Source: an uncultured Pseudomonadota bacterium (GTDB lineage: Bacteria > Pseudomonadota > Alphaproteobacteria > RF32 > CAG-239). Taken from it: 64,000 nt of DNA. The position numbers were made by a program, and so were the translations under genes. The notes under the pieces were generated by a model, which did no database searches, was not told where the DNA came from, and saw only the letters and a list, made by a program, of their open reading frames with translations. The stretch spans positions 1-64,000 of the forward strand of contig CAMRWU010000007.1 of the NCBI GenBank assembly GCA_947054505.1, written 5' to 3'. This document shows, one piece after another, positions 7,307-48,867 of this stretch (positions are counted from its first letter, which is position 1; each line of letters opens with the position of its first letter).

Positions 7307-9736
7307 TTAGTCAACCTTTTTAGGTTCGATTCGCATGCAGTAGAAAGACCGCCATACGAAGTACAAGCCCAGCAGGAAGAAAGCGATACCAGCACCCATC
7401 GCCACACAGCGAGGAGCGGCAACAGCCATCTCAACAGCCAGCAAACCAAACAAAGTTGTGAACTTGATAATCGGGTTCAAAGCAACTGAAGAAGTGTCTT
7501 TGTACGGATCACCGACAGTATCACCGACAACGGCGGCACTGTGCAAATCAGTTCCTTTTTCGTTCAAGTCAACTTCAACCACTTTCTTGGCATTATCCCA
7601 TGCACCGCCGGCGTTAGCCATATACAGAGCTTGGAACAAACCAAAGACCGCGATAGAAATCAAATAACTTGCAAACAAGTTGGCATCAAAGCATGCAAAC
7701 GCAATTGTGAAAGAGAAAATCACAATAAAGATGTTGAACATACCTTTCTGTGCATACAAAGTGCAGATTTGAACCACTTTCTTGGAATCTTCAACAGAAG
7801 CGGCTTTAGCCGTATCCAATTTGATGTGTTCCTTGATGTAGTTGACCGCACGATACGCACCGGTAGAAACCGCTTGCATAGAAGCTCCAGAGAACCAATA
7901 GATAACGGCACCGCCTAAGATGATACCAAACAGAACTTCCGGTTCCAACAGGTTGAGTTGCAAATTGAGCAACAAAATGATTGAGAAAATCATGGTTGTC
8001 GCACCGATAACGGCTGTACCGATAAGCACCGGTTTAGCTGTTGCCTTAAAGGTATTTCCGGCACTGTCGTTTTCTTCCAAATAGTGCTTACCACCTTCAA
8101 AATTCGGCTTGAAACCATATTCTTTTTCGATTTCTTTACTGATGCCTTTGATGTTTTCAATCTGAGACAATTCGAAAACGGATTGCGCATTGTCGGTCAC
8201 CGGACCATAGCTGTCAACCGCAATGGTAACAGGTCCCATACCGAGCATACCGAAAGCCACCAAACCGAATGCGAAAACTGTCGGATAAACCATATAAGCA
8301 TCCAGACCGGTACGAGCGGTAAAGAAAGCAACAGCCATCAAACCGACCATAACCAACCCCTGCCAAAAAGCAGAGAAGTTACCGGCAACAATACCTGAAA
8401 TAATGTTCAGAGAAGCACCGGCTTCGCGGCTGGCATTGACGATTTCTTCAACATGTTTTGACTTTGAAGAAGTAAAGATTTTGGTAAATTCCGGAATCAA
8501 AGCGGCGGCAATTGTACCACAGCTGATGATGACGGAAAGTTTCCACCACAAATCTTCGCCCATATTACCAATCATAACATAAGAAACACCAAATGTAACC
8601 AGAATAGAGATGATTGAAGTCAACCAAATCAAGCTTGTTAAAGGAGTTTCAAAGTTAAAGGAGGCTCTGTTACCAAAAATAAATTTAGAAACTCTGGAGT
8701 TAATCCAATAAGCAACGATAGATGTCAAAATCATCAACAAACGCATTGCAAAAATCCAAACGATTAAGCGTGCTTGAACATCGATACCGCCATCCATCAG
8801 AGCCAAAGCGCCATCCGGCATATACATCATACCGGCACCGAGAACGATAAAGCTGATGAGAGCCACACCGGTCACACCATAGGTTTCAAAACCATCGGCA
8901 GTCGGGCCGACAGAGTCACCGGCATTGTCACCGGTACAGTCAGCAATAACCCCAGGATTACGAGCATCGTCTTCATCAATCTTGAAAATGATTTTCATCA
9001 AATCTGCACCGATATCGGCAATCTTTGTAAAGATACCGCCGCAAATACGCAAAGCAGAAGCACCGAGCGATTCGCCGATGGCAAAACCGATGAAGCAAGC
9101 GCCGGCGTTGACACGGTCAACAAACAACAGAATGGCAATCATCATAATTAACTCAACGCAAATAAGCAAAACACCGATAGACATACCGGAACGCAGAGGC
9201 AGGCTCATAACCGGAAACGGTTTGCCGCGCAAAGACATAAAGGCTGTTCTGGAGTTTGCATAGGTATTAATTCTCATACCGAACCACGCTACGGCATAAG
9301 AGCCCAAAATACCCAAGACCGACCACATCAAAATAGTCAAAACCTTCGGCAACGGAGTAGCGTTCAGGTAAAAGAAGTAATAGAAAATACAAGCAGCAAT
9401 GAACAGTTCCAAAACCACCAACAATTTGGCCTGCTGTTTCATATAAGTTTTGCAGGTTTCATAAATGGTGTTTGAAACGTTGAGCATTGCCTTATGTGCC
9501 GGCATTCTTTTGATTTTGATAAATTCAACCAAACCAAAGAGCATACCAAAAGCACAAATGCCGATGCCATACATCAGGAGTTGCGATCCGGTAACAGCCC
9601 AACCAAAGATGTTGTAAGCAACATCCAAGGACGGAATGTTCAGATCGATTTCAGAAGCCATGGCATTTCCGGAAAGGACGCCAAGAGTTAGCAAAAATGC
9701 AAACGCAAATCCGCTAATTTTTTTCAAGCTAATCAT
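7307..9736 (-). CDS. hppA: Membrane-bound proton-translocating pyrophosphatase, divergent type
   Basis: Couples pyrophosphate hydrolysis to H+ (or Na+) export across the inner membrane. At 809 residues it is longer than the usual 660-770. It starts with a signal-like segment ending AMAS. Substrate-site motifs are present: DEDDARNPG followed by GDNAGDSVGPTADGFETYG near residues 255-280 and VGDTVGDPYKDTS near 735-747. They differ from the common DNVGDCAGMAADLFESY form. The K+-dependence region, normally GNTTAAxxKG or GNTTKAxxKG, reads GNFSAFWQG, so K+ dependence cannot be assigned by the usual rule. An AAAGGAA ribosome site precedes the ATG. It is a single gene with its own leader. Confidence 0.92.
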   Translation of the reverse strand: MISLKKISGFAFAFLLTLGVLSGNAMASEIDLNIPSLDVAYNIFGWAVTGSQLLMYGIGICAFGMLFGLVEFIKIKRMPAHKAMLNVSNTIYETCKTYMKQQAKLLVVLELFIAACIFYYFFYLNATPLPKVLTILMWSVLGILGSYAVAWFGMRINTYANSRTAFMSLRGKPFPVMSLPLRSGMSIGVLLICVELIMMIAILLFVDRVNAGACFIGFAIGESLGASALRICGGIFTKIADIGADLMKIIFKIDEDDARNPGVIADCTGDNAGDSVGPTADGFETYGVTGVALISFIVLGAGMMYMPDGALALMDGGIDVQARLIVWIFAMRLLMILTSIVAYWINSRVSKFIFGNRASFNFETPLTSLIWLTSIISILVTFGVSYVMIGNMGEDLWWKLSVIISCGTIAAALIPEFTKIFTSSKSKHVEEIVNASREAGASLNIISGIVAGNFSAFWQGLVMVGLMAVAFFTARTGLDAYMVYPTVFAFGLVAFGMLGMGPVTIAVDSYGPVTDNAQSVFELSQIENIKGISKEIEKEYGFKPNFEGGKHYLEENDSAGNTFKATAKPVLIGTAVIGATTMIFSIILLLNLQLNLLEPEVLFGIILGGAVIYWFSGASMQAVSTGAYRAVNYIKEHIKLDTAKAASVEDSKKVVQICTLYAQKGMFNIFIVIFSFTIAFACFDANLFASYLISIAVFGLFQALYMANAGGAWDNAKKVVEVDLNEKGTDLHSAAVVGDTVGDPYKDTSSVALNPIIKFTTLFGLLAVEMAVAAPRCVAMGAGIAFFLLGLYFVWRSFYCMRIEPKKVD

Positions 9737-17750: not shown

Positions 17751-19490
17751 ATGCCCAAGGTACTTTTTTTCTTACTGCCTCTCTTTTTAACGTCTCAATC
17801 TGTTCAAGCAGCGGTCGTTCCCGACTACGCCACCAACAACTATCAAAATCACGAACTCAGTCGAGCCGAAAAAAAATGCTTGGAAGAAGGCTACAAAATC
17901 ACTTACGCCAACTGTTCAAACCAAACAGCTCCGGCAGACAGATGTCCGCACCATGACGCCTACTACCGCAGTTGCTCCCAAGAACAATGGTGTCGCAACA
18001 ACAATTACAACTTTTTGGCCGAAGATTGCAAACTCCCTCTCTTTCCGGTTAAAATGTGCGCCAATAAATATCCTCTTTACCGCATCTGTCAAGAAAATCA
18101 GGTCAAAGCCTGCACCGGATTAGGATTCGTATCAAAAGATACTTGCAAATTGTCCGACAAACGTTGCCCCTACAGTCAGGATTACGGTCAATGTTGCGGC
18201 AAATGCGAAGGCTTCGCCTATCCCTTAGATAACATTCCTGAAGGATATGTCGCTGATGGCAAAACCTGTACAACCTGCGACGATATCGTCATGACCAATG
18301 TCAAACCGGCATCTTGCGAAGGCTATAAAGATTGTCCCTTTGGCCCGATGTCATCACAAACCCCTTCTTGCCGCCAAGGCTCCAAAACACTATATAGTGC
18401 CTGCAAAAGCGCCTCAACACTTTGCAAAGAAACCGGATACAATCAAACATCCTGCGCCGAAACGGAGGATACATTGGATTGCCCCCAACACAGCTCTTTC
18501 AAAAAATGCATCACCAACTGTCTCAAACTAGCAAAAAGCATTTCTCCGGATGCTGATGTTCTAGAGAAAAACGAAACCAATCCGATATTAGACTTGACTA
18601 AAACAAAGTTGCGTAGCTTGAGCGGATTGACACATCCCGATTGCCAAAACAAAACTCGTCCGATAATTGAGCTGACGATTAACCGTAACAATATGGAACA
18701 TTATCAAAATGTTCTTGATCGAGACATTGAAAACCTCACACTAAAATTAAACTTTGAAGAACCGTTAACTCTGCCCGCAAACGGAAACTTCAAAAATGTC
18801 AAGATTATTGCTAGCGGCACATTAGCGGAATGCCCCTTGCAGTCAGAAAAAATATCAGTATCGGGAACAGTCAGCTTCAGCGGCATACCGACACTGTGCA
18901 GCAACTTTGACGTTGCCGCCGAATCAAAACTCTTAACCGAAGGCTCAATCCGCGGAAATGTTGACATGGGAAAAGATTCTGCTCTTGGTGTCAAAGGAAG
19001 CATTCTCGGTTATCTGAAGAGCGGTAACAACAGCGAAATATTCATTAAAGGAGATATTCGCTATAACGATCCGTCCAACAACCAACCTGAAGATGCCAGC
19101 ATCCTATTTGGGTGCAACAACAAAGTCAAAATCGGCGGCGGCATCTATGCTGACACATCTTCTGTTGTCGTCAGACCGTGGACAAAGATTGACGTGGCAA
19201 AAATTGAGTTGAAATCAATCAGCAACAACCCCAAACTGCCCAATACTCTGTCCAGCCTGCATTTGCATAAATACACAAAACTGTTCAGCACTTATGGAAG
19301 CGGCGATTCTCAAGTTGTCTTTCCGTTGACTGAAAATGATGCGACAAATGGCTGTGAAGACAAATACTACATCCACTTGGGCTCTTCTGTAGATGAGGCA
19401 GAACAAACGACCGCTTTGGAACCGACAAATCTGCTGGAAGGAAAATGGACCTGTCGCACACTGCCTTACAACCAACAACAGTGCAATTAA
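17751..19490 (+). CDS. Large secreted cysteine-rich protein of unknown function
   Basis: 579 residues. A signal peptide (ending SVQAA, residues 17-21) is followed by about 260 residues rich in cysteine, with irregular repeats of the form KKCLEEGYKITYANC...CPHHDAYYRSC and similar CxxxGY-C-CP-C units. The C-terminal 300 residues have few cysteines and read as successive short strands (ASGTLAECPL, VSGTVSFSG, TEGSIRGNVDMG, VKGSILGYLKSG), suggesting a beta-helix-like stalk or plate. There is no membrane anchor or sortase motif. A TATAAT box lies near 17711. It is similar in style to the 758-residue protein at 46443-48719. No known family recognised; a cell-surface role is inferred. Confidence 0.8.
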   Translation: MPKVLFFLLPLFLTSQSVQAAVVPDYATNNYQNHELSRAEKKCLEEGYKITYANCSNQTAPADRCPHHDAYYRSCSQEQWCRNNNYNFLAEDCKLPLFPVKMCANKYPLYRICQENQVKACTGLGFVSKDTCKLSDKRCPYSQDYGQCCGKCEGFAYPLDNIPEGYVADGKTCTTCDDIVMTNVKPASCEGYKDCPFGPMSSQTPSCRQGSKTLYSACKSASTLCKETGYNQTSCAETEDTLDCPQHSSFKKCITNCLKLAKSISPDADVLEKNETNPILDLTKTKLRSLSGLTHPDCQNKTRPIIELTINRNNMEHYQNVLDRDIENLTLKLNFEEPLTLPANGNFKNVKIIASGTLAECPLQSEKISVSGTVSFSGIPTLCSNFDVAAESKLLTEGSIRGNVDMGKDSALGVKGSILGYLKSGNNSEIFIKGDIRYNDPSNNQPEDASILFGCNNKVKIGGGIYADTSSVVVRPWTKIDVAKIELKSISNNPKLPNTLSSLHLHKYTKLFSTYGSGDSQVVFPLTENDATNGCEDKYYIHLGSSVDEAEQTTALEPTNLLEGKWTCRTLPYNQQQCN

Positions 19491-26568: not shown

Positions 26569-27321
26569 TTACGAGTTTTTTTGCGTCGCGTCTTCTTCAA
26601 CATCGTCAAAAATACCGCCTGTCAGCAAATCTTCCAAATAATCCTCGCTGACCGTACCGGCAATCAGCTCTCTTTTCCCGTCAAAGGAAACAACAAATGA
26701 AGGTGTTCCTTGAATCCCCAATTGTGTCATTCCGTTCTGACGATTCTCCAAAATTTTCTGAGCGGTTTCATCATTATGCAAACATTTCTCCGCTTGCTCT
26801 GCACTAATACCGCTCAACGTCGCATATTGCTTAAGAACTTTTTGCGGATTATGCGCAAAACTCCAATCTCTCTGTTTTTTAAATAACACTTCGGCAAAAG
26901 CAAAATATTGCTCAGGCGCAACGCACTCTGCCAAAAGAGCGGCATCCATAGACGCCTTATCAATCGGAAACGGCACAAAAACAACACGGACTTCACCAGA
27001 TTCTACATATTTCCGAATAATGGACGGCAGAGTTGTCAAATGAAAATCCGCGCAATGAGAACAGCCGAAAGAAGAATATTCATAAATTGTAATCGGCGCA
27101 TTGACTTTTCCCAAAGAATGTTCCTCCGGCAAAACCAAATCAGCAGGAATATCCCGCGGACCGACATTATCCTGCGCATAGGCGCTACGCACCAAAACAA
27201 TCTCGCCGCTACCGTCAATAACAAACCCTTTTGCGGACAAATACATACCGGCCGCAATGAGATAAACCACAATCAACGCAACAATTGAACTGACATTTTT
27301 TATAATATCTTCAAACTTCAT
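26569..27321 (-). CDS. DsbA-like periplasmic thiol-disulfide protein
   Basis: 250 residues from the ATG at 27321 (MKFEDI), chosen over an upstream ATG inside the neighbouring gene. An N-terminal anchor helix (residues 10-30) is followed by a thioredoxin-fold domain with active site C87-S-H-C90 preceded by YSSFGC and a cis-proline segment GTPSFVV. This places it among the DsbA/Com1-like oxidoreductases of alphaproteobacteria that have DUF721 as neighbour. It probably forms or handles disulfides in exported proteins; the Cys-rich secreted proteins in this window are obvious possible clients (inference). It overlaps the DUF721 gene by 11 bases. Confidence 0.9.
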   Translation of the reverse strand: MKFEDIIKNVSSIVALIVVYLIAAGMYLSAKGFVIDGSGEIVLVRSAYAQDNVGPRDIPADLVLPEEHSLGKVNAPITIYEYSSFGCSHCADFHLTTLPSIIRKYVESGEVRVVFVPFPIDKASMDAALLAECVAPEQYFAFAEVLFKKQRDWSFAHNPQKVLKQYATLSGISAEQAEKCLHNDETAQKILENRQNGMTQLGIQGTPSFVVSFDGKRELIAGTVSEDYLEDLLTGGIFDDVEEDATQKNS

Positions 27322-46246: not shown

Positions 46247-46381
46247 TGGCGTCCTCTATAAAAATACATTTTCCCCCAAGATAACCGTCCCCGAAAATGA
46301 AGTCAATCGCTTCCGCCTTTTACTGACAAATTAATCCCCTAATTTTATTCTTCCTCTCTCATCAATATAAAAAAACACAAA

Positions 46382-46407
46382 GGGTCACCGAGTATAATCG
46401 ATGACCC
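46382..46407 (-). terminator. Terminator after the 758-residue Cys-rich gene
   Basis: On the minus strand GGGTCATCG pairs with CGGTGACCC (one G-T) over 9 bp, loop of 8 nt, followed by TTTGTGTTTTTTTA. It separates this gene from mltG downstream. Confidence 0.75.
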
Positions 46408-46442: not shown

Positions 46443-48719
46443 TTACTTAGATGCAGAAAGCGGACACCCTGCTTTCCCCAAAGCGTAGCGAACAACAACT
46501 TTATGGGTTCCTTCCGGAGTAATTCGGATAACGACATCTTGAATATCTCCTGGGCAGGACGGTATCGCCCCTACCGCTTTTCCATCAATCGAAGCGGAAC
46601 ACCCCGTATGCATATTATTACCGCCCGAATTACCTCTCGTCACCTGTAAATAAGCTTTAACCGTTGTATAAAGAGTTATCTTTTTATCAAATTTCGCTGT
46701 CATTATGTGTTTTCCATCCGAAAAACTTGCATTAGCCGGACATTCAACCGTAGCAGAAGCAAGATAGCTCCCCTGTAAATCTTGAAGTTCAAAATACAAT
46801 TTGGCACTCTCATGAAAACCTCCATCTAAGCCATAAAACTCCACTTCAAATGTAAACTCAACATCTTCATACTCTTTTCCGCTATCAGAACCACTACTTC
46901 CGGAACCATAAATACATTTATAGCATTTTCTTCCATCATCCAACGTTTTAACAACCGTGTTTTTATCTTGAGTATAATAAGTACCGCATTGCCCCTCCAA
47001 AGCTGAACCGCTTGGACACAAACATACATTGCGCAGACAAACACTTTGCTCCAATTTTGTGTCATCCTTTAACATATCACAAGCAGAATGTAATGCACAT
47101 CCATAATGCATGTCTTTTCTATCGGACATTGACGTCCAAACAGTATTATATCCAAGCCCATTGCGAATAATATTTTCAGTATTTCGAGGAGGCATTTCAT
47201 AACCGTTCACAGAACAATATTTATCAGCGCTTTCGTATGTAATAGAACCTGTTCCGCTGGTATGTGTACTTGTATTCCACGGATGAGGGATTACTAAATA
47301 ATAATTTTTATTATAGTAAAATCCATCTTTTCTCTCACCCTTGCTAAAGAGAACATTATTTTGATCGCTATCCGCATAGCCGCCTAATACACACCCTTGT
47401 TTACATTCTGTAAAACAGGTCAGTGATGTATCTTTGGGTACAACTCTTCGACAAAGCTCTTTCGACGCTACAGATGATTGATATCCATAATCATCACATG
47501 TTAATTTTGCACACTGATAGCAAACTGTTCCGGCCGCGGTTGTTGTTGTATTTGCAATTTTTTGTGATGACGTACAAGCTGTCTTGCTATATCCGCTGGC
47601 GCAGGTATCATTTTGGCACAAATAACAAGTCGATCCAGCATCAGTTTGCGTACTCGCCATTTGTTTCTGTGTAGACGTACAAGCTGTCTTGCTATAATCA
47701 GTAGGACAATTGTCATCTTTAGCAGTGCACTTGCCGCAAACTTCACCACCGGATTTTCCACTGGAAAAATAAGTATATTTTTGCGTGTCGGAACATTTCG
47801 TCACTCCTCTGGTATAGTCAGCAGGGCAAGGAACGGCTTCACAAGTTCCATTAGCGAGTTTCCACCCCTCAGAGGTTTTCGCACCGTCAATTTTATACTT
47901 ACTACTGTCACTCGGACATGATGTACAGTTACATCCTTCCGGACATGTACCTGTTAACGGATAATCCCTACACAAAGCAACACATTTGCCCCCGCTCAAA
48001 CTGTAACCATCATTGCAAGTGCATTTGTATTTTTTTGTGCTTCCTGCAGTACAAGTTTCACAAGTTGCATTCTCTAGTTTAGCCGTCAAGTCATAATCAC
48101 TCGGACAATTACATTGCATATATAAAAAGACATCGCCTGTTGCAGTAATGCTAGCAGGGGGAGTTGTTTGGCAATAGCCCCCCGCAACAACAGCAGGAGA
48201 AGAACATCGTGTTCTGACTGAACCATCAAGCATTGAGTTCATCAAATAAACATTTGAATATTTATATTCTGCCGGACATCGACAGTCTTTATAACAGGTT
48301 AAGCCATCTATCGGGCTAACTTCTGTTCCCTCTTTCAGCAAAGGACAACGAGAGACATAACCAAAATCAGTACAAGAAACACATTTCTTATAACAAGTCA
48401 GCCCGGGGATTGGATGTTGAACACCGGTTCCTACGGAACGGGCAGGACAAGAACTCAGCAATCCATAAGTTGCACATGTCCGCTTATTCTTATCATTACC
48501 ACCGTCATTAACACGGCCGACCAAATTACGTTGATAATCAGGCATAAAATAAGTTCTTGCCATCTGAAAAGATGAGCTATTGTCAAAAACAGATTCCGGA
48601 ACTAAGCTGAATTGTGTGTGTGAATTATCTAAAGGAGGCATATCCAAACCAGAAGCTTTTGCATTAAAGCCGTAAACCAAGGCTGAAACACAAATATACA
48701 TCGCCAATAATTTTTTCAT
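46443..48719 (-). CDS. Large secreted cysteine-rich repeat protein of unknown function
   Basis: 758 residues. A signal peptide (ending AKAS, residues 20-23) leads to a long region with many cysteines in repeats: CATYGLLSSCPARS...GLTCYKKC and CTDFGYVSRCPLLK...GLTCYKDC near 80-145, and CPTDYSKTACTSTQK...CYLC and CASGYSKTACTSSQK...CYQC near 340-400. Around 490-560 a segment with ADKYCSVNGYEMPPRNTENI and VWTSMSD recalls DUF1566/lectin-like modules. A Gly/Ser hinge precedes a C-terminal strand-rich domain of 140 residues. No anchor or known family. It sits alone between fabF and mltG with its own terminator, suggesting a late insertion. A surface or adhesion role is inferred. Confidence 0.8.
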   Translation of the reverse strand: MKKLLAMYICVSALVYGFNAKASGLDMPPLDNSHTQFSLVPESVFDNSSSFQMARTYFMPDYQRNLVGRVNDGGNDKNKRTCATYGLLSSCPARSVGTGVQHPIPGLTCYKKCVSCTDFGYVSRCPLLKEGTEVSPIDGLTCYKDCRCPAEYKYSNVYLMNSMLDGSVRTRCSSPAVVAGGYCQTTPPASITATGDVFLYMQCNCPSDYDLTAKLENATCETCTAGSTKKYKCTCNDGYSLSGGKCVALCRDYPLTGTCPEGCNCTSCPSDSSKYKIDGAKTSEGWKLANGTCEAVPCPADYTRGVTKCSDTQKYTYFSSGKSGGEVCGKCTAKDDNCPTDYSKTACTSTQKQMASTQTDAGSTCYLCQNDTCASGYSKTACTSSQKIANTTTTAAGTVCYQCAKLTCDDYGYQSSVASKELCRRVVPKDTSLTCFTECKQGCVLGGYADSDQNNVLFSKGERKDGFYYNKNYYLVIPHPWNTSTHTSGTGSITYESADKYCSVNGYEMPPRNTENIIRNGLGYNTVWTSMSDRKDMHYGCALHSACDMLKDDTKLEQSVCLRNVCLCPSGSALEGQCGTYYTQDKNTVVKTLDDGRKCYKCIYGSGSSGSDSGKEYEDVEFTFEVEFYGLDGGFHESAKLYFELQDLQGSYLASATVECPANASFSDGKHIMTAKFDKKITLYTTVKAYLQVTRGNSGGNNMHTGCSASIDGKAVGAIPSCPGDIQDVVIRITPEGTHKVVVRYALGKAGCPLSASK

Positions 48720-48823
48720 GCTGCACCTCTATATGCTATAGTTCCGGAACTCCCATAACTATAACATAAAAATTAGCAATAGTCAACTATACATTGCATA
48801 GGGAGGACAAAAATAAAACAATA

Positions 48824-48849
48824 AAAAAGCCCGCTGTTGCGGGCTTTTT
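48824..48849 (-). terminator. Rho-independent terminator after fabF
   Basis: An 11-bp stem AAAAAGCCCGC/GCGGGCTTTTT with a TGTT loop, 19 bases after the fabF stop; T run on the minus strand. Confidence 0.93.
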
Positions 48850-48867
48850 CGTATCAAAAAACAATCG

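Follow-up and report, generated by a model that had tools for sequence, protein, structure and literature searches.

The variant-specific surface proteins of Giardia are eukaryotic, membrane-anchored proteins of the cell exterior, Cys-rich and built from repeats; the bacterial proteins described here are alike in their Cys-rich repeat build and differ in sequence, the comparison being one of analogy only. Closer systems are found in bacteria: in relapsing-fever Borrelia (vmp) and in Anaplasma (msp2) an expression site is fed from archived copies or pseudogenes, and the Mycoplasma gallisepticum family consists of many full-length genes, each with a promoter, that lie in tandem and are controlled through a trinucleotide repeat, as set out in the portions of PMC4534519 drawn on here.

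The family that we describe came to light in a window of 64,000 nucleotides of DNA from an uncultured alphaproteobacterium. Taking the vmp and msp2 systems as those portions of PMC4534519 present them, it is alike in being a multigene and putatively outer-protein family with a conserved 5' seat of recombination and mosaic bodies, and unlike them in that most copies with a readable 5' end own a promoter and are dispersed singly. Conversion tracts between copies, a trait of both systems, are present here (the C3_56/C6_60 tract and the leader identity described below), assembly error being a possible source; in place of one expression site backed by silent copies that lack promoters, we find 11/12 genes inside contigs with the family's upstream region. 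The likeness to the M. gallisepticum family lies in the many full-length, promoter-bearing genes (PMC4534519), the difference, within the same portions of that source, in the dispersal of the copies and in the lack of any homopolymer tract within the frames of four broken copies. Phase variation by homopolymer slippage was discarded as a candidate: a scan of the first 2,000 bases of these four copies for runs of A/T >= 8 or G/C >= 7 returned a single T8, in C13_37, located past the ORF.

A cysteine-rich gene and its family

The first-pass annotation had placed a 2.3-kb Cys-rich gene with its own terminator between fabF and mltG, and this holds: the flanking genes are identified by Pfam (fabF, PF00109/PF02801; mltG, YceG, PF02618), the ORF starts with a signal peptide, and a hairpin-like structure lies just beyond its 3' end (Table 1). 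The terminator scan of the region gave 3 terminator-like sites against a shuffle mean of 1.6, which is weak taken alone. The encoded 758-aa protein has 55 Cys, 54 of them (an even number) beyond residue 22, and carries the repeats that had been quoted for it: GLTCYKKC at residue 106, GLTCYKDC at 139 and YSKTACTS at 342 and 377. With a signal peptide and no strong hydrophobic stretch downstream of it, the protein would be exported and would probably carry disulfides, and we infer a surface location, a ligand and expression for the family proteins in general. The DsbA family has two matches in this genome, one of them in the window at 26623-27090 (-) (PF01323, 39.1 bits); a search of the genome with PF02600 found no DsbB.

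Table 1. Features of the fabF-mltG interval, of the 758-aa protein and of the family leaders
Feature	Position or sequence	Strand	Basis or remark
Gene of Cys-rich, putatively exported protein, 758 aa	46443..48719	-	ORF list and sequence reading
Signal peptide	residues 1-22		by eye
N-terminal domain	residues ~50-116
Cys-rich repeats	residues ~116-443
Middle segment	residues ~440-602
C-terminal domain, suggested to be beta-rich	residues ~612-758
N-terminal domain, family signature 'SxQxAxTYxLPDYQ ... RVNDGG ... C.TYG ... GLTCYxxC'	48372..48575	-	alignment and profile
C-terminal, putatively beta-rich domain	46446..46886	-	low-confidence model; sequence homology to C14_end and C15_0
mltG upstream region, left edge of inserted stretch	46247..46342	-	comparison with sister genome
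Terminator-like hairpin 3' of the gene	46382..46407	-	terminator scan
Leader stretch (gene positions -4 to +132)	48588..48723	-	no difference among five dispersed paralogues
Putative ribosome-binding site AGAGGTG	48724..48730	-	sequence reading
Perfect 12-bp palindrome AGTTCCGGAACT just past -10	48740..48751	-	putative operator
-10 hexamer TATAGT	48758..48763	-
-35 hexamer TTGACT	48781..48786	-
GTCC box, 18 bases before -35	48805..48808	-	conserved across genus; putative activator site
fabF terminator, right edge of inserted stretch	48823..48850	-	comparison with sister genome
Leader type 1	MKKLLAMYICV		the window gene
Leader type 2	MKHHLSLLCF
Further leaders	MKRYYLLVAS; MFTFLRRALC		C6_60; C18 start

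The separate C-terminal part noted at first pass is real, in that the C-terminal half of the protein is homologous to two paralogues, both cut at the 5' end by a contig edge (C14_end, 30.6%, E 5e-11; C15_0, 27%, E 4e-5). Structure prediction gave a pLDDT of 38.6 for residues 405-758 and, for residues 612-758, a low-confidence model (mean pLDDT 60.1) that suggests a beta-rich domain. Foldseek found nothing in the PDB at E <= 0.001 for the latter model, the best match being a streptococcal pilin at a non-significant E of 3.7e-3, and a fold assignment was dropped.

Two further elements of the first-pass description fell away. The DUF1566/lectin-like segment was detected neither by Pfam in the proteins scanned nor by a PF07603 (Lcl_C) search of the whole genome at E 1, a search of modest sensitivity, given that a control found matches in 2/14 genomes with none above the cut-off; and the resemblance to a protein encoded at 17751-19490 amounts to no detectable homology in a single BLASTP comparison (E 0.026), so that kinship between the two was rejected. 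That second protein (+ strand, 579 aa) contains Cys, has a signal-peptide-like start and matches nothing in Pfam or NCBIfam above cut-off.

The family proteins that were scanned against Pfam and NCBIfam gave no match above curated cut-offs and no accepted anchor or binding domain. By eye, Cys spacing and a 'YWTS'-like stretch recall Lcl_C/DUF1566, EGF-like and PKD domains, none of which reached its cut-off: the nearest Pfam miss is PKD in the sister genome's C93 gene (20.8 against 23.5 bits), and cEGF (PF12662) on the window protein scored 16.8 bits (E 0.0064; cut-off 26.6). A literature search, in which subscription journals were thinly covered, found no publication on this protein family. 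This is a family of Cys-rich, putatively exported proteins new to the libraries searched, for which the modular, Cys-rich build and fast turnover of the genes would be consistent with a role in binding or adhesion.

The genome to which the window belongs (G000) comprises 1.49 Mb in 18 contigs; the 758-aa protein has 41 matches in it at E 1, and a type-2 paralogue used as query has 37 at E 0.1. Our tally is 12 genes inside contigs, 7 copies cut at the 3' side and 7 at the 5' side by contig ends, hence 19 to 26 copies—a range, because 3'-cut and 5'-cut halves may belong together—plus three remnants (C1_117, C5_61, C6_28). Of the 36 contig ends, 14 fall within family genes, two of these (the starts of C3 and C4, promoter matches C3:29 and C4:48) being assigned by promoter likeness alone; the assembly is interrupted at these repeats, which makes the gene count a lower bound. 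Among the 12 genes inside contigs, four are broken (C2_66, C3_56, C13_37, C10_31); in C10_31 (L026 2665-4971) one stop codon splits the frame, which then runs on in-frame for 183 aa.

A profile of the N-terminal domain (alignment A2; 13 rows including the window, with 3 erroneous residues in 2 rows) recovers the window gene at E 2.2e-30 over 48372-48575, as it must by construction, the window being a row of the model. At E 1e-4 it matches at least 37/152 genomes of the taxonomic family: at least 26/35 of the same genus and, weakly, at least 11/117 outside it (best E 1.6e-7). Matches per genome reach at least 22 in G000 and in G024, 20 in G012 and 17 in G032, some genes matching twice. Across a class-wide sample, with up to 15 candidates scored per genome, the profile matches at least 2/385 genomes, both of the same genus and one of them G000 itself. 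On these comparisons the family appears large, mostly genus-specific and dispersed. The first-pass view of an expanding, lineage-specific family is therefore borne out by a count of at least 19 copies and 3 remnants in 1.49 Mb, by the absence of Pfam/NCBIfam matches and by the range of the family; its further suggestion of spread by insertion likewise stood, on the strength of empty sites in the sister genome, whilst the kinship and the DUF1566 segment did not.

The fabF-mltG slot and other sites in a sister genome

mltG was found in 36/38 genomes, G000 included; 30 mltG loci were compared, one being the window's own, which leaves 29 relatives. The fabF-mltG interval measures 2,621 bp in the window and no more than about 310 bp in 24/29 relatives' loci, so the gene is not at the same place in all of them; the remaining five (L061, L067, L068, L069, L073) are uninformative on insertion because fabF is absent from the stretch compared.

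The closest relative, sister genome G034 (mltG 90% identical), has an interval of 309 bp. Similarity to it covers the start of mltG and the region upstream (87%, 209/239), ends at 46342 and starts again at ~48805-48818 on the fabF side. In the sister's 309 bp TTTTTGTCC adjoins the fabF terminator, as in the window, and 47 bp are 87% identical to the type-2 5' region (E 2e-11, with 11 short sequences compared); this is a scar with a type-2 promoter remnant and not a clean empty site. Because of the remnant we rejected a simple insertion that postdates divergence from the sister. The slot was in all likelihood occupied by the time the two species parted, on the sister's side by a type-2 copy, and in the window it holds a type-1 copy; the alternative is that insertion at fabF-mltG took place twice independently. 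As to the fabF terminator itself, the stretch with its hairpin (48823-48850) repeats at C6:28235, C5:35948, C3:65746, C6:2397 and C6:2798 with 83-92% identity, and the sister carries a different hairpin at this site.

To look beyond this slot, 37 flank pieces of 23 further sites were queried against G034 (one more site was dropped for length), making 24 sites with the window, 14 of which could be assigned a state. Four are empty in G034 with no recognisable remnant (C14_9, C10_31, C1_160 and C1_117, the last reduced to a remnant of ~80 bp in G000 itself), two are scars (the window and C3_56) and eight are wholly or partly occupied (C6_60, C1_230, C4_4, C6_28, C18_0, C3_47, C5_61, C13_0), several of these being represented by no more than one end of the gene, 5' or 3', at the edge of a contig. 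The reverse case also occurs: on C68 of G034 a type-1 gene lies near another gene, and beside the counterpart of that neighbour on C5 of G000 the adjoining 140 bp contain no family gene.

Five shared filled sites allow bodies to be compared, all pairs except C6_60/C74 having one flank only on the sister's contig, and the C15_0 and C3_end pairs having been found from the G034 side, outside the flank query. The body is kept at C3_end/C59 (73% over 1,813 columns) and at C1_230/C63, and has no detectable match at C4_4/C83 and C15_0/C46; at C6_60/C74 the first 212 bp alone match as DNA (87%), with 41% protein identity over 428 aa. Bodies at C4_4, C15_0 and C6_60 would thus have been either swapped or strongly diverged from those of the sister.

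Promoters, leaders and probable conversion tracts

Upstream of the 758-aa gene lies a sigma70-like promoter, TTGACT-17-TATAGT (48786-48758). The promoter scan of the region, which gave 10 promoter-like sites where shuffled sequence had a mean of 7.5, is weak taken alone; support for the promoter comes from its conservation across the family. In the loci studied, 73 N-terminal-domain matches yielded 41 distinct upstream stretches (not 41 independent cases, some being shortened and many paralogous), and GTCC stands exactly 18 bases before TTGA in 20/41, one of which (L151) appears to be a chance match; every other spacing between 12 and 24 bases is found in 0-2 stretches. Searching the loci for GTCC-N18-TTGAC returned 35 sites, 21 of them family-like and from 12 species by a crude test for downstream motifs. 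Among the other 14, L021:7910, L122 and L125 point off contig ends where family genes are present or likely, L046 lies in front of a family gene, and ten appear to be chance matches. By this count, the layout recurs in about 12 species.

Over the whole of G000 the stricter TYGTCC-N18-TTGAC has 12 matches, C1:254856 among them, against 1 for the reversed pattern; 11 lie at family 5' ends. Four of the 11 run off contig ends, those on C11 and C13 being 95-96% identical to the type-1 5' region; the window's GTCC-N18-TTGAC match is at C7:48782-48810. The strict pattern fits 6/12 genes inside contigs and the rest depart from it; C2_66 and C13_37, with an altered -35, still have an upstream region of the family's type; the promoter region of C6_60 differs from that of the rest of the family. 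Past the -10, the palindrome is perfect in type 1, type 2 has a palindrome-like stretch at the start site, and AGTTCCGGA of the palindrome is kept in the three G024 promoters seen. Since GTCC box and palindrome are common to most copies, one regulator probably switches the set together.

Immediately downstream, five type-1 copies at five places show 0 differences in their first 130 coding bases, whilst differing from one another at 3-25/94 bases upstream of the leader and at 48-70 of 132-141 bases between +205 and +345. The invariant run spans 136 columns, a length reached in 0/10,000 column shuffles (longest run 38 columns; 61 when restricted to -94..+204). Its 27 synonymous sites have 0 differences among the five copies, and again 0 against the sister's C30 copy, as compared with synonymous differences between the two species at 0.57 of sites in mltG and 0.51 in part of fabF. 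Over these 129 bases the C68 copy of the sister carries 7 synonymous changes and 15 of other kinds; the leader DNA is therefore able to vary. Compared with the sister's copy at L097 ~7454-7582, the window leader has four changes in 129 bases, all of them changing the amino acid. Such near-identity across species may mean that leaders have been exchanged between them or that the DNA as such is under constraint.

Breaks in similarity occur elsewhere. C4_4 is identical to the other type-1 copies to about codon 43 and then differs at 13-15/74 bases. Type-2 leaders form three pairs, each with 0/75 differences, plus C11_10; C10_31 and C3_47 differ from C1_160 at 10/75 leader bases, yet at 1/80 upstream. 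Type-2 promoters group otherwise than their leaders, and we read the type-1 and type-2 copies as mosaics. At the RVNDGG junction the type-1 gene C1_230 matches type-2 genes over 45 and 53 bp with 94-96% identity.

The clearest tract links C3_56 (type 2) with C6_60, a gene with another leader and promoter: they are identical at 297/300 positions over five 60-base windows, falling to 48, 31 and then 14-16 of 60 before the tract and to 34 and then 10-20 of 60 after it. The whole ungapped match extends over 414 bp at 95%; because the next DNA match past the tract (86 bp) reaches only 69% and has other spacing, the tract edge is not a mere indel. This sharp-edged tract is best read as segmental gene conversion, with assembly error at repeats as the caveat.

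Proposed renewal of the family

At a probability of roughly 60%, we favour the reading that the window gene belongs to a dispersed family under common regulation, whose modular, disulfide-rich products are exported through Sec and serve in binding, and that the repertoire is renewed through insertion, deletion and conversion. Located at the cell surface or released from it, the products would act as adhesins or bind glycans or the host; most copies with a readable 5' end would be driven by their own sigma70-like promoter, with the common GTCC box and palindrome probably answering to one regulator. Renewal could proceed by ectopic insertion of promoter-gene-terminator units between housekeeping genes, by deletion that leaves promoter scars, and by homologous segmental gene conversion seated in the conserved N-terminal domain and in leaders that are nearly identical; conversion there would homogenise leaders and exchange bodies. 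The family, its common promoter layout, the identity of leaders, the mosaic tracts and the empty, scarred or swapped sites are all read from the sequences; from these we infer common regulation and recombination of the RecA type. Counting against this reading are the absence of a PF02600 match and of any accepted anchor or binding domain, the fit of the strict promoter pattern to no more than 6/12 genes inside contigs, the low-confidence C-terminal model and the two shared sites at which bodies were kept. Gene conversion within the family is well supported, and a dedicated exchange system might exist; it is unusual to see near-invariant leaders combined with exchanged bodies and with separate promoters of like kind. 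More tentatively, and at odds well short of even, the two dozen or so separately promoted and jointly regulated loci might be interchangeable slots, with the near-invariant leader DNA as a recombination seat for swapping bodies—possibly between species too, as the leaders have 0 synonymous changes and fabF and mltG differ at half of such sites.

Much of this could also arise in an ordinary birth-and-death family, in which copies come from recent duplication and decay and the leader is kept by selection on signal peptide and translation start, with no special exchange. Four broken genes out of 12, the occurrence of remnants and scars and the vertical evolution of bodies at two shared sites all agree with this, and turnover could be neutral given those four broken copies. 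It fits less well with 0 synonymous changes at 27 sites in five copies whose promoters differ by up to 25/94 bases, with the variation seen in the sister's C68 copy, or with a C3_56/C6_60 tract common to genes with different leaders; on balance we think this account rather unlikely.

Assembly error at repeats is the main caveat to the favoured reading and is to be excluded first: both genomes are fragmented and 14/36 contig ends of G000 lie in family genes (two by promoter likeness only), so misjoins at the leader are possible, and in the sister, too, a number of contigs stop at a leader or its start codon. That short-read assembly has collapsed or misjoined repeats, and so created identical leaders and chimeric genes throughout, is nevertheless improbable in our view, as the leader recurs in the sister with its four amino-acid-changing differences in 129 bases, the promoters adjoining identical leaders differ copy by copy, and the promoter layout recurs in about 12 species. 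It would be more surprising still were the units cargo of a non-autonomous mobile element ending in the TTTTTGTCC motif. Units at different sites do start at this motif, which is left behind in scars; it keeps, however, a constant distance of 18 bases to the -35 across many species, and for that reason reads as a promoter box, and inspection of a few junctions by eye revealed neither a 3' end in common nor inverted repeats or target duplications.

If the favoured reading is right, small-genome uncultured alphaproteobacteria would hold at least 19 copies in 1.5 Mb as a shuffling repertoire of exterior proteins, under a scheme best known, as in the portions of PMC4534519 drawn on here, from pathogens that feed an expression site. 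The repeats of the family break metagenome assemblies, and may mislead them. The family would also offer a testable case of concerted evolution limited to a leader, and its genus-wide promoter signature could lead to the regulator. Taken as a whole, it has the look of a scheme by which an uncultured alphaproteobacterium diversifies its exterior.
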